A stretch of DNA of 10,078 nucleotides. Origin: Candidatus Iainarchaeum sp. Lineage in GTDB: Archaea > Iainarchaeota > Iainarchaeia > JAGGVJ01. The position numbers and the translations under genes are program-made. The stretch spans positions 1-10,078 of the forward strand of contig JAGGVJ010000024.1 in the NCBI GenBank assembly GCA_021158055.1. The letters are read 5' to 3'. The notes below the pieces were generated by a model. The model had not been told where the DNA came from. It searched no databases and was given only the letters and a program-made list of their open reading frames with translations. Below, one piece after another: positions 2,951-10,078 of this stretch; position 1 is the first letter of the stretch; every line of letters begins with the position of its first letter.

Positions 2951-4226
2951 CTGTTTTCTCCCCGTTGCTTTTTGCTTTTTTTTTATCTGGATGAAAATCA
3001 TGCCCGCCCATTCCAAAAGTGGCTGCAATGTCTTCGCGGTACTTATAACCTATGTAGAGCAGGATTAATAACGCTAATCCAAAAATTACTTCCCACTGAA
3101 AATATGACTGCGCCGGATTTTTTCCGTTATTTTTTATCTGGCTGATTAAATCAGACACCGTGATAAATTTTTTATCTGCTGCCTCAAAGTTCTTGTTTTG
3201 AATATCCTGCGTTAACTCCGACCAGGTGTCAAAAAGGTCATTTACTCCTTTTGCATCTTTATAATCTGAACCGCTGTTCACAATGTCCCTTACTTCGTCT
3301 TCAATTTCACTTACCTTCTCAAGTATGCTTTTTTCAAGATTGTCTCTTTCCGCGACTTCGCTTATACGCTGCACTGAAAGTTCAGAATATTGTGAAGCTT
3401 CTGTTTTTGATATCGAAAATATTTTTTCTGACGCTTCCTGATAATTCACCGCCGCACTATTAAATTGTCTTGATTCCATCAGCAAACTGGTTCCAAGCAC
3501 AATGTTTATGAAATCGCTTTTTTGTTCAGGCAACAATTCACTGCTGAAAATAATTTCGTTTGTCTGGGGGATCATTATGTCATAGTCTTCAATTTTCTCA
3601 GCCAACAGCGATATTTCCTCAAAGGCAAAGGAGTATTCTGCGGAAACAGTTTCTTTTAACTCAAAACCCGGGCTGTTCAAAAACTGCGATTCTGTTTCCG
3701 AAGCATCTGAAATGGCTGATTCGACCAAAAGAGCTTGTTCTTTAATGAACTTCAAAGAACTCAAAAGAGCATTGACGCTTGACTTCACACCCGAATCAAC
3801 ATCTTCACAGGAGACAATAAACTTGAGGCCGTATGTTTTTTTTTCAATGTCGTTTGCAAGCGAATGCATGTTTCCGGCATTTGACTGCGTAAAAAACGCA
3901 TTGTTCTGCCTCAAGTTGGCAATTTCAGAAAACACAAACGCTGTTTCAAGAACATCTGCTATTTTTTTTGAATCTTCCAAGACACTGCCGCTTGATGAAT
4001 CCACAAGAATGTATGAAGAAATTCTCCCGGCTTTTTGAATCTTTCCGACCCAATAGCCTTGCTCTTCAAGCCCGATCGGGGTTGAATTTAAAATCGTGGC
4101 ATCTTCACCGCTATAAAGATAGTTCTTCTGAATAAAATCAGCTGCTTCAACCTGATTTACACTGCTTGCGCCCGCGACCTGAAACAAAAGCAGGACCGAT
4201 ATCAAAAATACGTTTATCTTTGCCAC
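2922..4226 (-). CDS. Exported helical protein with C-terminal membrane anchor, function unknown
   Basis: No family is recognised. The product of 434 residues begins with a signal-peptide-like segment (1-20, core FLISVLLLFQVAGA). Residues about 27-85 (AADFIQKN, then GYWVGKIQKAG and YILVDSSSGSVLED) have the size and pattern of a PepSY-like beta domain; this is a resemblance only. Residues about 85-365 are mainly alpha-helical with heptad-like stretches, for example 200-214 and 285-318. A membrane helix lies at about 377-394, followed by a charged cytoplasmic tail that ends in DVFPWEK. The outside part has a single cysteine (140). The start is a GTG at 4226 with only a weak upstream GGTG; an in-frame TGA lies shortly upstream, so no long extension is possible. 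With the next gene it forms a two-gene operon of single-pass, outward-facing proteins with charged inner tails, suggesting a complex at the cell surface. Confidence 0.78.
   Translation of the reverse strand: MAKINVFLISVLLLFQVAGASSVNQVEAADFIQKNYLYSGEDATILNSTPIGLEEQGYWVGKIQKAGRISSYILVDSSSGSVLEDSKKIADVLETAFVFSEIANLRQNNAFFTQSNAGNMHSLANDIEKKTYGLKFIVSCEDVDSGVKSSVNALLSSLKFIKEQALLVESAISDASETESQFLNSPGFELKETVSAEYSFAFEEISLLAEKIEDYDIMIPQTNEIIFSSELLPEQKSDFINIVLGTSLLMESRQFNSAAVNYQEASEKIFSISKTEASQYSELSVQRISEVAERDNLEKSILEKVSEIEDEVRDIVNSGSDYKDAKGVNDLFDTWSELTQDIQNKNFEAADKKFITVSDLISQIKNNGKNPAQSYFQWEVIFGLALLILLYIGYKYREDIAATFGMGGHDFHPDKKKAKSNGEKTDEDVFPWEK
2958..2963 (-). promoter_or_regulatory. Shine-Dalgarno site choosing the start at 2950
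   Basis: On the minus strand GGGGAG is followed by seven bases and then ATG 2950. It lies inside the end of the upstream gene, which fits translational coupling of the two exported-protein genes. Confidence 0.75.
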
Positions 4227-4400
4227 GTCAATACACTCTCACACCGATAACATCAATACATTGTACACCAATACTTTATGTTAGATTTGCATTGATACAT
4301 TGCATAAATACAATAAGAATAAATCCACAAATCTTTATAATTGTTTAGTGAAAAACAACAAACATAAAAAACTATTAAACAAAAACCAAAGGGTGTAGTT
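4227..4400. promoter_or_regulatory. Divergent promoter region between exported-protein operon and TrmJ-like gene
   Basis: This AT-rich stretch separates two divergent transcripts. For the plus strand, TTTATAA at 4334-4340 is a good TATA box, predicting a transcript start near 4360 and a leader of about 40 bases with GGTG at 4392-4395. For the minus strand, CATAAAGT (complement of 4273-4280) predicts a start near 4250. The part nearest the minus gene is filled with imperfect short repeats around ATACATTG (4252-4260, 4295-4303) and CAATAC (4229, 4251, 4269). Confidence 0.5.
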
Positions 4401-5114
4401 ATCTTCAAAGTAATTTTAATCGAACCTGAATACCCGCAAAACCTCGGCCTCACTTGCAGGGCAATGAAAAATTTCAGATTGTCGCAACTTGTCCTGGTTA
4501 ACCCGAAAGCAAAACCAAGTGAAAGCTCTGCTATTTCAAGGTCAATGCACGGGCGCGACGTGCTTGAATCCGCAAAAACAGTTGATTGCATTGAAAAAGC
4601 CCTTGAAAACAGTGACCTGAGCGTAGGGTTCACTGCAAAAAGCTTTTTTGAGGACAAAATTCTCCGGACCCCCGTGAACCTGCGCGAGCTCTCGGCAAAA
4701 CTCAAGGGAAAAACAGGTTCTGTGGCGCTTGTCTTTGGAAGGGAGAGCAGCGGGCTTTCAAACAAAGAGCTTAAGCAATGCGACCTGACATGCGTGATTC
4801 CTTCAAACCCTGATTACGCGACACTGAACATTTCCCACGCGTGCGCAATTGTGTTCTTTGAGCTTTTTTCAGGCGGGTTTGGAAAAAAACTGCCTCTTGC
4901 AGACAAAAACACAAAGCAGACAATATTTGATTCTTTTTCAGACCTGGTATCTTCAACAAAATTTGACTTCAAGCGGCCGCAGGTGATGAGCACTGCATTC
5001 AAACGCGTTTTGAACAAAAGCCTGATGACTCAAAGAGAAGCGAACGTTATCGCATCTGTCTTTTCACGGCTTTGTGAAAAAGAAAAACAAAAAAACAAAA
5101 AAAACTCACAGTAA
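4401..5114 (+). CDS. trmJ: TrmJ-like SPOUT tRNA 2'-O-methyltransferase, apparent AUC start
   Basis: The protein belongs to the SpoU/TrmJ branch of the SPOUT methyltransferases, knotted dimers that methylate the 2'-OH of a tRNA ribose with SAM; archaeal TrmJ modifies C32. Motif 1 (KVILIEPEYPQNLGLTCRAMKNF, residues 3-25) is recognisable only if translation starts before the first ATG at 4464. Motif 2 is LVFGRESSGLSN at 110-121 and motif 3, the knot, is VIPSNPDYATLNISHACAI in the 132-150 region. The C-terminal helical extension (about 177-237) matches the family. In frame, TAA at 4365-4367 closes the upstream side and there is no ATG, GTG or TTG before 4464. The best initiator is ATC 4401, five bases after GGTG, giving 237 residues, the usual length. 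A start at 4464 would remove 21 conserved residues. A sequencing error is the alternative. The gene is monocistronic and convergent with the bPH2 gene. Confidence 0.85.
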   Translation: MFKVILIEPEYPQNLGLTCRAMKNFRLSQLVLVNPKAKPSESSAISRSMHGRDVLESAKTVDCIEKALENSDLSVGFTAKSFFEDKILRTPVNLRELSAKLKGKTGSVALVFGRESSGLSNKELKQCDLTCVIPSNPDYATLNISHACAIVFFELFSGGFGKKLPLADKNTKQTIFDSFSDLVSSTKFDFKRPQVMSTAFKRVLNKSLMTQREANVIASVFSRLCEKEKQKNKKNSQ

Positions 5115-5203
5115 CTTCGCCTGCTTGCCTGCGCTGTTTTCTGCTTCAGTAGCGTTGCTTTTAGCTTCAGTAGCTGAATAGCATTGCTTTCAACTTCAGT
5201 AGT
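5115..5203. other. Convergent intergenic region filled with duplicated gene tail
   Basis: The 89 bases between the convergent TrmJ-like and bPH2 genes are mostly repeat copies (see 5144-5221). A T-stretch near 5137-5140 could end the plus-strand transcript. No hairpin is convincing. Confidence 0.5.
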
Positions 5204-5221
5204 TCAATAGCATTCTTTCAG
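5144..5221. repeat. Imperfect tandem repeat, about 28 bp, at the 3' end of the bPH2 gene
   Basis: Three copies start with CTTCAGTAG at 5144, 5165 and 5194. The first is shortened (about 21 bp, lacking the middle CTGAATAG); the second and third are 29 and 28 bp and differ by a few bases. The third copy contains the stop codon (complement of 5204-5206) and last codons of the bPH2 gene. The other two lie beyond the stop, so the gene tail seems to have been duplicated downstream. Confidence 0.8.
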
Positions 5222-7618
5222 CTTGTCGTAAAATTCCCTGTAATCCGGAATGTCAACAACCACCAGCTCCGCGGTGCTGCTTCCCGTGGTGTTCACTGAA
5301 ACGTTTCCGTTTCCAAACATTTTGTTCAGCATGCCTTGATTGACATTGAGGTGGTCTATTTTTCTAAACAGGATAGACGTTTGTTTCTTGTACAAAATGC
5401 CTGATTTTTCAACAACCCTGTAGGGCTCAATGGAAAAAGACCTTACCTTTACGCTCCAGACCGCAAGCAAAACCACAACAGGCAAAACCAACAGCAGCGG
5501 AATCAAAAACTGCAAGAAAAGAACAAACAACAGCGTGACAACAACAGCCGGAACGCCCCAAACAACAATGGTGTTTGAAACATCCGGTTTCGCCGTGAGC
5601 ACCTGCGTTGATTCCTCAACGTAAGCCTGAATGTTCCGCTCAATGTCTTTGACTTCCTGCGCATTCGGGTTCCTGTAAAAAATTAGGTCTATCAATTCAT
5701 CTTTACTGCTTACGTCTTCAATGAAATCCACCTTAAAGCTGTTGGATATAACTACCGCGGTCTTCCCCTGCTGGACAACGCGTTCCCCTGCAATGTTAAA
5801 CTGCACAGAGCCGGACTGAGAAAACGGGTATTTCACTGTTGAAATGTCTTTTATGTCGTCGCGCAGGACAAAGTAAACTTCTTCAAAAAATATTCCCCTT
5901 GAACAATAGACATAGTTTTCAAAAAACGAAAGGTTCACCCTGTTTTGATAAACTGACTGGTAAACTGCAAAAATCAAAAACCCGACAATAATGATGACCG
6001 GGACTGCAAGAAACAAGGGCTCAAACAACAACGCTCCCGCAGAAAATGCAAACACGCCCAAAACCAATGCGACTGAAACAAAAAATGCCCCTTTCAACAG
6101 GTCAATCAAAGAAAAGCTCGGGTTCATTTCATAAATCTTTTCCTGTGGTTTTATCCCTGTTTTCGCAATCACTGCCTCGTACAGTCCCTCTGATTTTTTT
6201 ATGTTCCTGAACTGGAGGTCTTCTGCCGAACCGATCGACCAAAAATGAATGCTGCATGTGTTAAACCATTTGTCTATGAAGTTTTCCTTGAATATGACTG
6301 CGGTGATTTTCTCGTTTGCAAATTCAACGTTTTTCGAGTGGATAAAATTGTAACGCTGGGCCATGTTGTTTTCTTTGATGTTGTATTTTGTCGCGCCGAC
6401 TTCAATCACCTTCAATACAACAAGAATAACAATGACAACCAGCAAAGGAGGGAAAATCAGTGCAAACGGCAACAGCACAAGCAACGGTGCAAGTGTCCTT
6501 GCGCTGTCCATTTTGTGCTCTGAAGTATAAGTTGTGTCCCTGTCAAGCGCATGTTTTTGGTATGCTGCCTCTTGCGCGGTGCCGGAAACTTCTTCTCCTG
6601 CGATCCCCTGGGCCTGCGCAGTTTCTGCTGCCTGTGTCTTTGTTCCGACAAGCGAACCGGTTTTGCTTATGAGCTCATCAATGTTTGATTCAAGTTTCGG
6701 GCCGTTTGCCATGTTTTTGAACAGTATTTCCTGGGAACTGCCCTGGCAGCTGATCTTGACATCATACAAGCCGAATATTTTGTCAATCAATGTCTGGGTC
6801 ACAGTGGAATCAGACAGATTTTCTATGGGGATGACCGAGTAGTTTCTTGAAAGGAATCCTTCACTGTAAGTGATCGTGTCTGAATAAACATTATACACCC
6901 TGTTTTTCAGGTCAAGGAAGCGAAATGCAGAAACCAGAATCACTGCCGCCAAAACCAGCAGGGCGCCAAAAAACAACAAAGCAAGATCCACAGGGAGAAT
7001 ATCTGAAAGCGCGCTTGAAAGGCCTTCTGTACCGAAGTCAAAAACAATGTAAATAAAAAACAAGAACGCTCCCGCGATACCGCCGACTGTTTCAAAAAAC
7101 ACACCTATTGTGCTTGGCTTTTCCTGCTGGACCAGCTCTGTTTTTGACAGGCTGAAACCGTTGCTTTTGAGCATGTCCTGAATGTGTTCATAGATTTTTT
7201 CAGGTTTGTTTATGGAAGACATATATATTTCCGAAAGGCCGCTTCCCGCTGATTCAATGGCAATGCTTCCGGTTTTAAACAGTTTTTGTTCAATGAACGG
7301 CAATTTCATGTCAATGTGGGTAACGTTTCTTATGACAAGCTCGGTTTCGCTGTCTGAAATAATGGTTCCTGATTTCCGGATTATTTTGTCTGCAAAAAAA
7401 ATGTATTTTTCCTTGTTGTAGGAAACATTCAGGCAATAATAACAAAATGCTTCCAGCGCAACGAAAACAACTGCCGGATACACGACAGGCAGGTTAAAAA
7501 AAGCATTTGCAATAATGTGAATCACTGCAAAAATCACCAAAAGCAAAATTGAAATCTTGGCAAAGCCATAAGTCACAAACGAGGTCCTGTTAGGTTTAAG
7601 TTCATAAGAGTCAGCCAT
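5204..7618 (-). CDS. Multi-pass membrane protein with five bPH2 (YdbS/YdbT-like) modules
   Basis: From ATG 7618 the product has 804 residues. It alternates hydrophobic segments with soluble domains five times. Membrane segments lie at about 20-63, 172-232, 376-404, 504-553 and 684-722; soluble domains follow at about 66-155, 240-320, 409-490, 560-650 and 727-804. The soluble domains look like bacterial PH domains type 2 (formerly DUF304). The pattern is clearest in the last one: SFSIEPYRVVEKSGILYKKQ, then FRKIDHLNVNQG and a FGNGNVSVNTTG strand. YdbT of Bacillus subtilis is known to have fewer modules, so five is unusual. A low-complexity linker rich in A, Q and E spans about 324-360. The function of the family is unclear; in bacteria YdbS/YdbT have been linked to tolerance of certain toxins and to the envelope. 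The start at 7618 is supported by a TATA box centred 27 bases upstream (leaderless mRNA); the frame extends to a TTG at 7690, which is less likely. Confidence 0.85.
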   Translation of the reverse strand: MADSYELKPNRTSFVTYGFAKISILLLVIFAVIHIIANAFFNLPVVYPAVVFVALEAFCYYCLNVSYNKEKYIFFADKIIRKSGTIISDSETELVIRNVTHIDMKLPFIEQKLFKTGSIAIESAGSGLSEIYMSSINKPEKIYEHIQDMLKSNGFSLSKTELVQQEKPSTIGVFFETVGGIAGAFLFFIYIVFDFGTEGLSSALSDILPVDLALLFFGALLVLAAVILVSAFRFLDLKNRVYNVYSDTITYSEGFLSRNYSVIPIENLSDSTVTQTLIDKIFGLYDVKISCQGSSQEILFKNMANGPKLESNIDELISKTGSLVGTKTQAAETAQAQGIAGEEVSGTAQEAAYQKHALDRDTTYTSEHKMDSARTLAPLLVLLPFALIFPPLLVVIVILVVLKVIEVGATKYNIKENNMAQRYNFIHSKNVEFANEKITAVIFKENFIDKWFNTCSIHFWSIGSAEDLQFRNIKKSEGLYEAVIAKTGIKPQEKIYEMNPSFSLIDLLKGAFFVSVALVLGVFAFSAGALLFEPLFLAVPVIIIVGFLIFAVYQSVYQNRVNLSFFENYVYCSRGIFFEEVYFVLRDDIKDISTVKYPFSQSGSVQFNIAGERVVQQGKTAVVISNSFKVDFIEDVSSKDELIDLIFYRNPNAQEVKDIERNIQAYVEESTQVLTAKPDVSNTIVVWGVPAVVVTLLFVLFLQFLIPLLLVLPVVVLLAVWSVKVRSFSIEPYRVVEKSGILYKKQTSILFRKIDHLNVNQGMLNKMFGNGNVSVNTTGSSTAELVVVDIPDYREFYDKLKECY

Positions 7619-7729: not shown

Positions 7730-7806
7730 CCGTTTTGCATTAATTTTTTATTTTTTCAGTTTGTATGATTTTTTTAGTCGGTGTTTTTTCAAACAACTTG
7801 TTTTTC

Positions 7807-7864
7807 AGTTGCATTAATACATTCACATTCAATTGCATTAATACATTCACATTCAGTTGCATTA
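7807..7864 (+). repeat. 24-bp tandem repeat, 2.4 copies, in the leader of the NcsA-like gene
   Basis: Copies lie at 7807-7830 and 7831-7854 (one mismatch), with ten bases of a third at 7855-7864. Each full copy contains GCATTAATACATT. The period is eight codons, and the stretch is open in the frame of the downstream gene, reading SCINTFTF and NCINTFTF from the ATG at 7765. The same TTGCATTAAT motif appears once more at 7735-7744. Confidence 0.85.
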
Positions 7865-7878
7865 AACCCGCAAACAAC

Positions 7879-7882
7879 GGAG
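7879..7882 (+). promoter_or_regulatory. Shine-Dalgarno site choosing the start at 7891
   Basis: GGAG ends eight bases before ATG 7891. The in-frame ATG at 7765 has no such site and would add a repeat-encoded, hydrophobic segment. Confidence 0.65.
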
Positions 7883-7890
7883 AAAATCAA

Positions 7891-8805
7891 ATGTATCAAA
7901 AAACTGATCTGGAATTCAAAGAGTACTTTGAAAAAAAAATAAGGTACACGATCAGAAAATACAAGCTGTGCAGCAAAAAAGACAGGATAGCAGTGGCTGT
8001 GTCAGGCGGAAAGGATTCTACTGCCTGCCTTTATGTCCTCAACAAACTGGGTTTCAATGTTGAAGCAATTACAATAGATGTGCTGATTGGAGACTACACA
8101 AAGCAAAACCTTGAAAACCTCAAAAAGTTCTGCGCTGAAAACGACATAAAACTCAACACAGTGTCTTTTCAGGAAGAGTTCGGCAGACCACTTCGCTCTA
8201 TCCGCTCGGTTGTGAACTCAAAAGGTCATGATTATTCATCGTGCCGGATTTGCGGAATACTTAAAAGATACCTGCTGAACAAGTATTCAAAAGAACTGGG
8301 TTTTGACTTTCTTGCAACCGGCCACAACATGGACGACGAGGCACAGACGTTTCTGATGAACGTCTTCAAAAACGACCTGGTGCTTGCAAAAAGACAGGGC
8401 CCGGTTTCAGCAGGCAACGAAAGCAGGATATTTGTAAAAAGAATAAAGCCGTTGTACCTTTTGTCAGAAAAAGAAACTGAAATGTACTCGAAACTCATGA
8501 ACTTCCCTGTAAACTACGGCATCTGCCCTTGTTCTTCAAACGCTTTCAGGCGAAACTTCATCAACATTTTAAACAAGTTTGAGGAAAAGCACCCGAGCGT
8601 AAAAAGCAACATCGTGAACTTTCAGGAAAAACTTGCACAGGAAATAAAAAACCAAAACAACAATGCAAAAATCACAGCCTGCACACTTTGCGGGGAGCCT
8701 TCAAGCAACAGCGTCTGCAGAACCTGCCAGATACTCACTGCATTAAAAGAGGATGAACATGACAAACAAACAAAAAAGCAAGCCGGATACTGTGACAGTG
8801 CATAA
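7891..8805 (+). CDS. NcsA/TtuA (Ctu1)-like tRNA 2-thiouridine synthetase, N-terminal zinc finger missing
   Basis: The product (304 residues) adenylates a tRNA uridine and replaces its 2-oxygen with sulfur; family members act on U34 (NcsA/Ctu1) or position 54 (TtuA). The ATP PP-loop SGGKDS is at 38-43, the CRIC pair C118/C121 and C212 in GICPC match the three cysteines that hold the iron-sulfur cluster, and the family motif ATGHNMDDEAQ is at 142-152. RIKPLYLLSEKE (184-195) is also typical. A C-terminal zinc finger is formed by C264/C267 and C276/C279. Relatives usually begin with a second zinc finger before EYFEKKIRYTIRKYK; here it is absent, and the sequence upstream is repeat-derived instead. 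The start at 7891 rests on GGAG at 7879-7882; an in-frame extension from 7765 is possible. The 3' end overlaps the ThiI-like gene by 47 bp. Which uridine is modified cannot be told from sequence alone. Confidence 0.9.
   Translation: MYQKTDLEFKEYFEKKIRYTIRKYKLCSKKDRIAVAVSGGKDSTACLYVLNKLGFNVEAITIDVLIGDYTKQNLENLKKFCAENDIKLNTVSFQEEFGRPLRSIRSVVNSKGHDYSSCRICGILKRYLLNKYSKELGFDFLATGHNMDDEAQTFLMNVFKNDLVLAKRQGPVSAGNESRIFVKRIKPLYLLSEKETEMYSKLMNFPVNYGICPCSSNAFRRNFINILNKFEEKHPSVKSNIVNFQEKLAQEIKNQNNNAKITACTLCGEPSSNSVCRTCQILTALKEDEHDKQTKKQAGYCDSA
8749..8752 (+). promoter_or_regulatory. Shine-Dalgarno site choosing the ThiI start at 8759
   Basis: GAGG lies six bases before ATG 8759. It directly abuts the ATG at 8753, which is too close, so 8759 is preferred although the two differ by only two codons. 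Confidence 0.55.
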
Positions 8806-10078
8806 TGACAAACCGGACACAGTGATAGTGCATTACGACAAACCGGACACAGTGATAGTGCATTACGACGAGATAGGGCTCAAAGGAGCAAACAGACCTT
8901 ACTTTGAAAAGCTTTTGATGAAAAACATTGAAAGAAAACTAAGCAGCATTTCAGGGCACCCGGGCAAAGACAAAGGCAGCACGGTTGCCAGGAAACACAT
9001 CCGGGTTGCCGGGAAACACATCCGGGTTGCCGGAAAACACATCCAAATCGCCAGGGAACACGGCCAAATCGCCTTAAGCATCGGCGCGGGCGACAATCTC
9101 TTGGAAATAGCGGATGCTCTTTCAAAAATTCCTGGAATCGCGTTTTTTTCGTTTACAAAAAAAACAGGCCTTGACATCAAGTCAATCAAAGAAAGCTCTG
9201 TTGAATTCCTCAGGAAAGCAAAGTTTGAGTCGTTCAAGGTAAACTCAAAAAGGCACAACAAAAACGTGCCTTTCACTTCAATGGAGCTAAACGCATTGAT
9301 CGGCGAGGTGCTGATTGACGCATTCGGCAAAAAAGTGAAAATGAAGGGAGCTGACCTTGTCTTGAAAATCGAGGTTTCAAACAAGTTCTCTTACCTGTCC
9401 TGCAAAGACATTACAGGGGTGGGGGGACTCCCGACAGACAGCAGGCAAAAAGTGGTTTCGCTTATGTCAGGCGGGTTTGACAGTCCCGTCGCGTCTTACC
9501 TAATGATGAAAAGAGGCTGCGAAGTCATCCTTGTGCATTTCCAAAACCAGAACCTGTTGTCTGAATCTGTCGAGAATAAGATTGTCCGGCTTGCAAAACA
9601 CCTTTCAAAATACCAGGTAAAAACAAAGCTTTTCATCGTGCCTTTCGGGGAGATCCAAAACGAGATAATCTCAAAAGTCCACTCCGGTGTTAGGATGCTT
9701 GTCTACAGAAAGTTCATGATTGAAATTTCATCAACTATTGCAGACAAGGAAAAAGCAGGGTTTTTGGTTGTGGGGGACAGCTTGTCGCAAGTTGCGTCGC
9801 AAACCTTTGAAAACCTAAACGCTGTCTATTCCGGCTCAGAAAAGCACATCTTTTCCCCTTTGATCGGGCTGAATAAGCAGGAAATCATAGATATTGCAAA
9901 GGAGATCGGAACATATGACATCTCGGCGCTTCCTTACGGCGACTGCTGCAGTTACTTTGTTCCAAAGCACCCTGAACTCCGGGCAGGCAAGGAAACCCTT
10001 GAAAAATGCAAGGAAGCCATTGAATCTAAAAAATTAGTCGAAAGCGCAGTGAAAAACGCCAGGGTTTTTGTGTTTTAA
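8759..10078 (+). CDS. thiI: ThiI-like tRNA 4-thiouridine synthetase with two internal tandem expansions
   Basis: The product (439 residues) resembles ThiI, which makes 4-thiouridine at tRNA position 8 by ATP-dependent sulfur transfer. The order is an N-terminal ferredoxin-like domain (to about 135), a THUMP domain (about 136-220, ending near SYLSCKDITGVGGLPTDSRQ) and a PP-loop domain with LMSGGFDSPVASY at 235-247. VVGDSLSQVASQTFENL lies in the 337-353 region and PYGDCCSYFVPKHP at 392-405; C396 or C397 is the likely catalytic cysteine. No rhodanese domain follows; the protein ends at the last base of the window. Two stretches are unusual. Residues 8-37 repeat KPDTVIVHYD three times before the conserved EIGLKG, and residues 76-103 repeat a seven-residue unit four times (VARKHIR to IAREHGQ). 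All repeats keep frame and the conserved core is intact, so the gene is probably functional. It overlaps the thiolase upstream, forming a tRNA thiolation operon. Confidence 0.93.
   Translation: MTNKQKSKPDTVTVHNDKPDTVIVHYDKPDTVIVHYDEIGLKGANRPYFEKLLMKNIERKLSSISGHPGKDKGSTVARKHIRVAGKHIRVAGKHIQIAREHGQIALSIGAGDNLLEIADALSKIPGIAFFSFTKKTGLDIKSIKESSVEFLRKAKFESFKVNSKRHNKNVPFTSMELNALIGEVLIDAFGKKVKMKGADLVLKIEVSNKFSYLSCKDITGVGGLPTDSRQKVVSLMSGGFDSPVASYLMMKRGCEVILVHFQNQNLLSESVENKIVRLAKHLSKYQVKTKLFIVPFGEIQNEIISKVHSGVRMLVYRKFMIEISSTIADKEKAGFLVVGDSLSQVASQTFENLNAVYSGSEKHIFSPLIGLNKQEIIDIAKEIGTYDISALPYGDCCSYFVPKHPELRAGKETLEKCKEAIESKKLVESAVKNARVFVF
8780..8869 (+). repeat. 30-bp tandem repeat, three copies, at the NcsA-ThiI junction
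   Basis: Copies lie at 8780-8809, 8810-8839 and 8840-8869. The last two are identical; the first differs at six positions. In the ThiI frame they read KPDTVTVHND, KPDTVIVHYD, KPDTVIVHYD. The first copy also holds the TAA stop (8803-8805) of the upstream thiolase gene. Confidence 0.95.
8984..9067 (+). repeat. 21-bp tandem repeat, four copies, inside the ThiI N-terminal domain
   Basis: Copies lie at 8984-9004, 9005-9025, 9026-9046 and 9047-9067, followed by a partial ATCGCC. They encode VARKHIR, VAGKHIR, VAGKHIQ and IAREHGQ. The first three are nearly identical; the fourth is more diverged and matches the REHG strand expected in ThiI proteins, so it is probably the ancestral copy. Confidence 0.93.

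Follow-up and report, generated by a model that had tools for sequence, protein, structure and literature searches.

A probable AUC start codon in an archaeal trmJ gene and similar candidates elsewhere in the genome

Introduction

Where does translation of a tRNA methyltransferase gene begin when a conserved part of the protein is encoded upstream of every canonical start codon? A TrmJ-like gene raises this question in the window analyzed here, which is an entire contig of 10,078 bp (C10) from an archaeal genome assembly (45 contigs, 1.15 Mb in total, 95% complete). An earlier note on this DNA had proposed that the gene starts at an ATC at position 4401, exactly where its relatives start, and that the organism might tolerate AUH starts in general; it had also called for an alignment of homologues and for a survey of the genome for genes that lack canonical starts near GGTG.

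Near-cognate initiation is itself an already known phenomenon, and such starts are known in bacteria, for example the AUU codons of Escherichia coli infC and pcnB. A limited literature search found no paper on AUC starts in archaea. Archaeal reviews give AUG, GUG, and UUG as start codons (PMC7531240), and the initiation factor aIF1 has been reported to help in discriminating against non-canonical ones (PMC8211752). Citing the 64-codon survey of Hecht 2017, PMC10666635 puts the efficiency of AUU in E. coli at only about 0.3% of that of AUG.

Results

The features of the start region, all on the + strand, are as follows.

4333 to 4341, +: putative TATA-box-like element CTTTATAAT, read from the sequence and from established archaeal promoter geometry
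4365 to 4367, +: in-frame TAA upstream of trmJ, read from the sequence
4392 to 4395, +: Shine-Dalgarno (SD) core GGTG, complementary to the 16S rRNA 3' end GGATCACCTCCTT, five nucleotides before the ATC
4401 to 4403, +: ATC, candidate initiation codon, by alignment with homologue starts (family f2) and by SD spacing
4401 to 4463, +: conserved TrmJ N-terminus IFKVILIEPEYPQNLGLTCRA, preceding every canonical start, by profile, structure, and alignment matches
4464 to 4466, +: ATG, first canonical in-frame codon, without an SD; a start here would lose six invariant residues
4401 to 5114, +: TrmJ/YjtD family tRNA 2'-O-methyltransferase, 237 amino acids plus stop, by TIGR00050, PF00588, and PDB 4cnf

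The trmJ frame is open from the TAA to a stop at 5112 to 5114, and the codons that follow the TAA read AAA ACT ATT AAA CAA AAA CCA AAG GGT GTA GTT ATC TTC AAA GTA ATT TTA ATC GAA. Just as the earlier note had said, no ATG, GTG, or TTG occurs in this frame between the TAA and ATG 4464. Frameshift rescue of the start from another frame was ruled out, since no canonical start in the +1 or +2 frame reads into ATC 4401 without meeting a stop.

Also borne out was the claim that the conserved N-terminus lies upstream of ATG 4464. The ATC-started protein scores 168.7 bits against TIGR00050, above the curated cut-off of 167.15 and thus within TrmJ/YjtD, with an alignment that begins at residue 3 and covers positions 6 to 228 of the 233 in the profile. 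The PF00588 match likewise begins at residue 3, and Sulfolobus TrmJ (4cnf) aligns from residue 3 (E value of 6.6e-30), its C-terminal alignment extending to residue 232. The protein has a SPOUT domain with the N-terminal strand, invariant N14 and R20, and a C-terminal extension, as expected for a member of the family. In an alignment of eight sequences of the same class (the protein studied here and seven homologues), 27 columns are invariant, and 6 of these (L6, P9, Y11, N14, G16, and R20) fall within the 21 codons from ATC 4401 that precede M22, the residue encoded by ATG 4464. Judged by these matches, the stretch upstream of ATG 4464 is coding, and the gene is by its sequence an ordinary archaeal TrmJ-type SPOUT tRNA 2'-O-methyltransferase gene, with predicted activity at position 32. 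It resembles the TrmJ family (TIGR00050/COG0565; 4cnf) in matching the domain over its full length, from residue 3 through the C-terminal extension, and its start codon is the only unusual feature.

A start at ATG 4464 would have the advantage of being the sole canonical one ahead of the main gene body, and would yield an N-terminally truncated protein of 216 amino acids, a decayed or altered TrmJ. We regard this as highly unlikely, as such a protein would lack β-strand 1 of the SPOUT domain and all six upstream invariant residues, including N14 and R20, the ATG has no SD (-2.1 kcal/mol), and the remaining gene is intact across 237 codons.

The alignment of homologues places the start close to ATC 4401 and upholds the proposal that it lies exactly where relatives start for one family only. 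Homologues of family f2 begin with GTG-TTC-CGN-GT (VFRVVLVEPHYAGNIG) or ATG-CTT at the exact equivalent of ATC 4401 (IFKVILIEPEYPQNLG), and their N-termini read VFRVV or MLRVV. In the other families, by contrast, most homologues have their ATG or GTG start a codon further upstream, at the position of GTT 4398, so that in nearly all homologues the start falls within one codon of ATC 4401.

The 16S rRNA of the genome matches the archaeal family over its full length, and the GGTG lies five bases before the ATC, separated from it by TAGTT (4396 to 4400), in agreement with the coordinates of the earlier note. In a sample of 433 genes of this genome, GGTG precedes ATG most often at a spacing of 5 (N5, 43 cases), followed by N6 (18) and N7 (16), with 0 to 5 cases at other spacings; before TTG the peak also falls at N5 (18 cases). 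GGTG-N5 was seen in this sample before near-cognate codons as well (ATA, 1; ATC, 1; ATT, 1; CTG, 2), and the sole ATC so placed in the 5' regions is that of trmJ. The chance of a GGTG at one given spacing before an ATC is about 0.25% (10 matches over 17 spacings and 240 ATC codons of 5' regions). The predicted duplex with the 16S end has an energy of -6.5 kcal/mol for ATC 4401, compared with medians of -6.0 for ATG starts and -3.5 for background positions. Because about 14% of background positions also reach -6.5 kcal/mol, the duplex energy by itself is weak evidence, and the weight rests on the spacing together with the homologous position.

The same measurements bear on other non-canonical codons, namely GTT 4398, GTA 4395, or ATT 4374. 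That most homologues begin one codon upstream of the ATC speaks for such a start, but the spacings are wrong, with GTT only two nucleotides after GGTG, GTA overlapping it, and ATT upstream of it, and the duplexes are weak for GTT (-3.8 kcal/mol) and GTA (-2.0 kcal/mol). We know of no established pattern of GUU or GUA initiation, and we give these codons the slightest of chances.

Initiation at AUC 4401 is thus the best-supported reading, because it combines a homologous position, an SD at the spacing preferred by the genome, and an intact gene. We consider it likely that translation of trmJ starts there, as the earlier note had proposed, a conclusion drawn indirectly from these sequence features. 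The predicted protein would begin with MFK, or with FKVILIEPEYPQNLGLTCR if the methionine is removed. From the position of the TATA-like element, transcription would be expected to start near 4364, with a leader of about 37 nucleotides, whose secondary structure is ordinary (z of -0.25). An Rfam search of the window gave no match.

Genes of this kind were then sought in 961 kb (84%) of the genome, whose open frames were set against portions of the genomes of three relatives (578, 400, and 400 kb). This yielded 447 genes that have a homologue and for which an upstream stop is visible. Intrinsic coding scores computed ahead of the first canonical codon produced many spurious candidates from shadow open reading frames, as did an unfiltered comparison of open frames, and homology filtering was used instead. 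Genes were retained if conserved sequence preceded the first canonical codon and an SD stood about N5 to N6 before a near-cognate codon. Five of the 447 genes qualified: a nuoB/mbhJ-like gene, hxsB, pyrB, an APC permease gene, and trmJ, in which no canonical start yields the conserved N-terminus and the SD stands at a functional spacing. The other well-placed candidates are as follows, the last being outside the 447.

L037, 2306 to 2722, -: nuoB/mbhJ-like gene whose conserved region is preceded by no canonical start; CTG at 2722 after GAGGTGATC
L110, 13449 to 14894, +: hxsB radical SAM maturase gene with an apparent CTG start after AGGTGAT (TIGR03978, 435.5 bits)
L044, 4617 to 5537, +: pyrB, likely ATT start after GAGGGCGAT, by homology and SD
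L049, 1000 to 1677, -: phosphoribosyltransferase gene, likely ATA start after AGTGAT at N5

The CUG candidates are the strongest of these near-cognate cases. The nuoB/mbhJ-like CTG has the strongest SD among the own-genome candidates (-12.2 kcal/mol), its first ATG lies 34 codons in, and the alignment with 6cfw spans the region. In hxsB the first GTG lies 30 codons in and has an SD, but at a spacing of 14; a His-Xaa-Ser system may surround this gene. For pyrB, residue 2 of Pyrococcus aspartate transcarbamoylase (1ml4) aligns with the residue after the ATT, which puts Met1 on the ATT, with the caveat that a TTG lies seven codons downstream. For the phosphoribosyltransferase, residue 3 of 1wd5 aligns with residue 6 of the protein counted from the ATA, so that Met1 of 1wd5 corresponds to an ATT that lies three codons after the ATA and is likewise non-canonical. 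The APC permease, with a CTG after a weak SD, is a weak candidate. A trimethylguanosine synthase-like methyltransferase gene (L020, - strand, open reading frame from 4144) also has no canonical start before its conserved sequence; it lacks an SD and is possibly a fragment.

The survey thus returned a few candidates without a canonical start, and SD enrichment before near-cognate codons, AUA, AUC, and AUU among them, was absent across the gene starts of the genome. For the proposed tolerance of AUH starts this is a divided result: the AUU of pyrB and the AUA of the phosphoribosyltransferase resemble the AUC of trmJ, whereas the strongest cases are CUG and no genome-wide enrichment accompanies them. 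Because such enrichment is lacking, these starts are a rare use and not an altered initiation code.

The survey also bears on a sequence error or a minority strain variant, in which the true codon would be ATG 4401 or GTG 4398. The assembly is metagenome-like with its 45 contigs, a single base change would turn either GTT 4398 or ATC 4401 into a canonical start, and position 4398 is the start in most homologues. GTT 4398 is, however, too close to the GGTG, as described above, and the frames of the genome are otherwise clean, with about 1 internally broken gene among the 447 conserved genes, a count that leaves out matches at gene ends and tandem paralogues. The broken case is an asparaginase-like gene (L050, - strand, about 3550 to 4615), which is split by a frame change. 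With the codon usage found here, a single-base change within coding sequence creates a stop in about 4.3% of cases, and about 15 nonsense mutations would be expected for each lost start. As about 73 would be expected for five lost starts and about one broken gene was seen, random error or decay is rejected for the candidate set, though not for the single base in trmJ, for which we hold an error or variant to be unlikely.

Among the relatives, at least 1 of 317 genes in G016 qualifies, and no qualifying gene was seen in 184 genes of G003 or in 205 genes of G005.

L078, 14428 to 14955, + (relative G016): tRNA-splicing endonuclease gene with an apparent ATA start after AGGTG-N5 (-11.2 kcal/mol)

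The difference between 5 of 447 genes in this genome and at least 1 of 706 in the relatives (Fisher's test, P = 0.035) is only suggestive of an excess, because the candidates were picked by hand.

The first gene of the window, which is HemK2-like, had been thought by the earlier note to start at an AUA. GTG 148 and GTG 166 are in frame and the match to the family profile starts close to GTG 166, so that an AUA start is possible and not required; on the other side, AUA 175 has a GGTG at N6 (-8.5 kcal/mol) that is better placed than for either GTG. An 18-bp tandem duplication at 137 to 173 duplicates the SD region of this gene. Short tandem repeats with units of 18 to 30 bp occur in the window at 1 to 108, 137 to 173, 5146 to 5224, 7804 to 7865, 8779 to 8869, and 8983 to 9073. 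Two repeat arrays inside the ThiI frame add the repeated peptides DKPDTVIVHY and VAGKHIR. The longest open reading frame of a TtuA/NcsA gene (start region 7765 to 7893) runs from 7765, but ATG 7891 after GGAG fits better as a start, and the part ahead of this ATG is mostly encoded by repeats. Many tRNA matches in the genome exceed 85 bases, which suggests introns, and ARAGORN finds few tRNAs.

Discussion

Our results lead us to propose that a leadered trmJ mRNA would be set on the 30S subunit by pairing of GGUG (4392 to 4395) with the 16S 3' end, and that AUC would then occupy the P site at a spacing usual for the genome. The similar candidates in other genes of this genome speak for such a start. 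Initiator Met-tRNA (anticodon CAU) could initiate there with a third-position mismatch, making methionine residue 1, and expression of TrmJ from this codon is probably low. As in archaeal SD-led initiation (PMC7531240; PMC8211752), a GGUG(AU) motif, an anti-SD, and aIF1 are present, while the trmJ codon stands outside the AUG, GUG, and UUG set (PMC7531240). The aIF1 of this genome looks ordinary beside that of its relatives, which rules out its loss as the cause of near-cognate starts; a change in the initiator tRNA would be another conceivable cause. The presence of aIF1 counts against initiation at AUC, as do the absence of genome-wide SD enrichment before AUA, AUC, and AUU and the low efficiency of AUU in E. 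coli.

The proposed start shares with bacterial near-cognate starts (AUU, AUC, AUA, and CUG; infC and pcnB) a one-base difference from AUG and a well-placed SD; it differs in that the organism is an archaeon, the codon is AUC, the gene serves tRNA modification, and the case is known from sequence alone. The near-cognate starts considered here represent a rare tolerance and not a new code. It is possible, though we suggest it only tentatively, that this lineage checks start codons slightly less strictly, with about 1% of conserved genes beginning with an AUC, AUU, AUA, or CUG that follows an SD at a suitable spacing, all of which standard gene callers would truncate or misplace.

If these readings are true, AUC would be able to start an archaeal housekeeping gene despite the presence of aIF1, and gene callers restricted to AUG, GUG, and UUG would misplace or truncate roughly 1% of the conserved proteins that this genome encodes. 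The candidates named here (the nuoB-like gene, hxsB, pyrB, the phosphoribosyltransferase gene, and trmJ) make near-cognate initiation directly testable in uncultured archaea.
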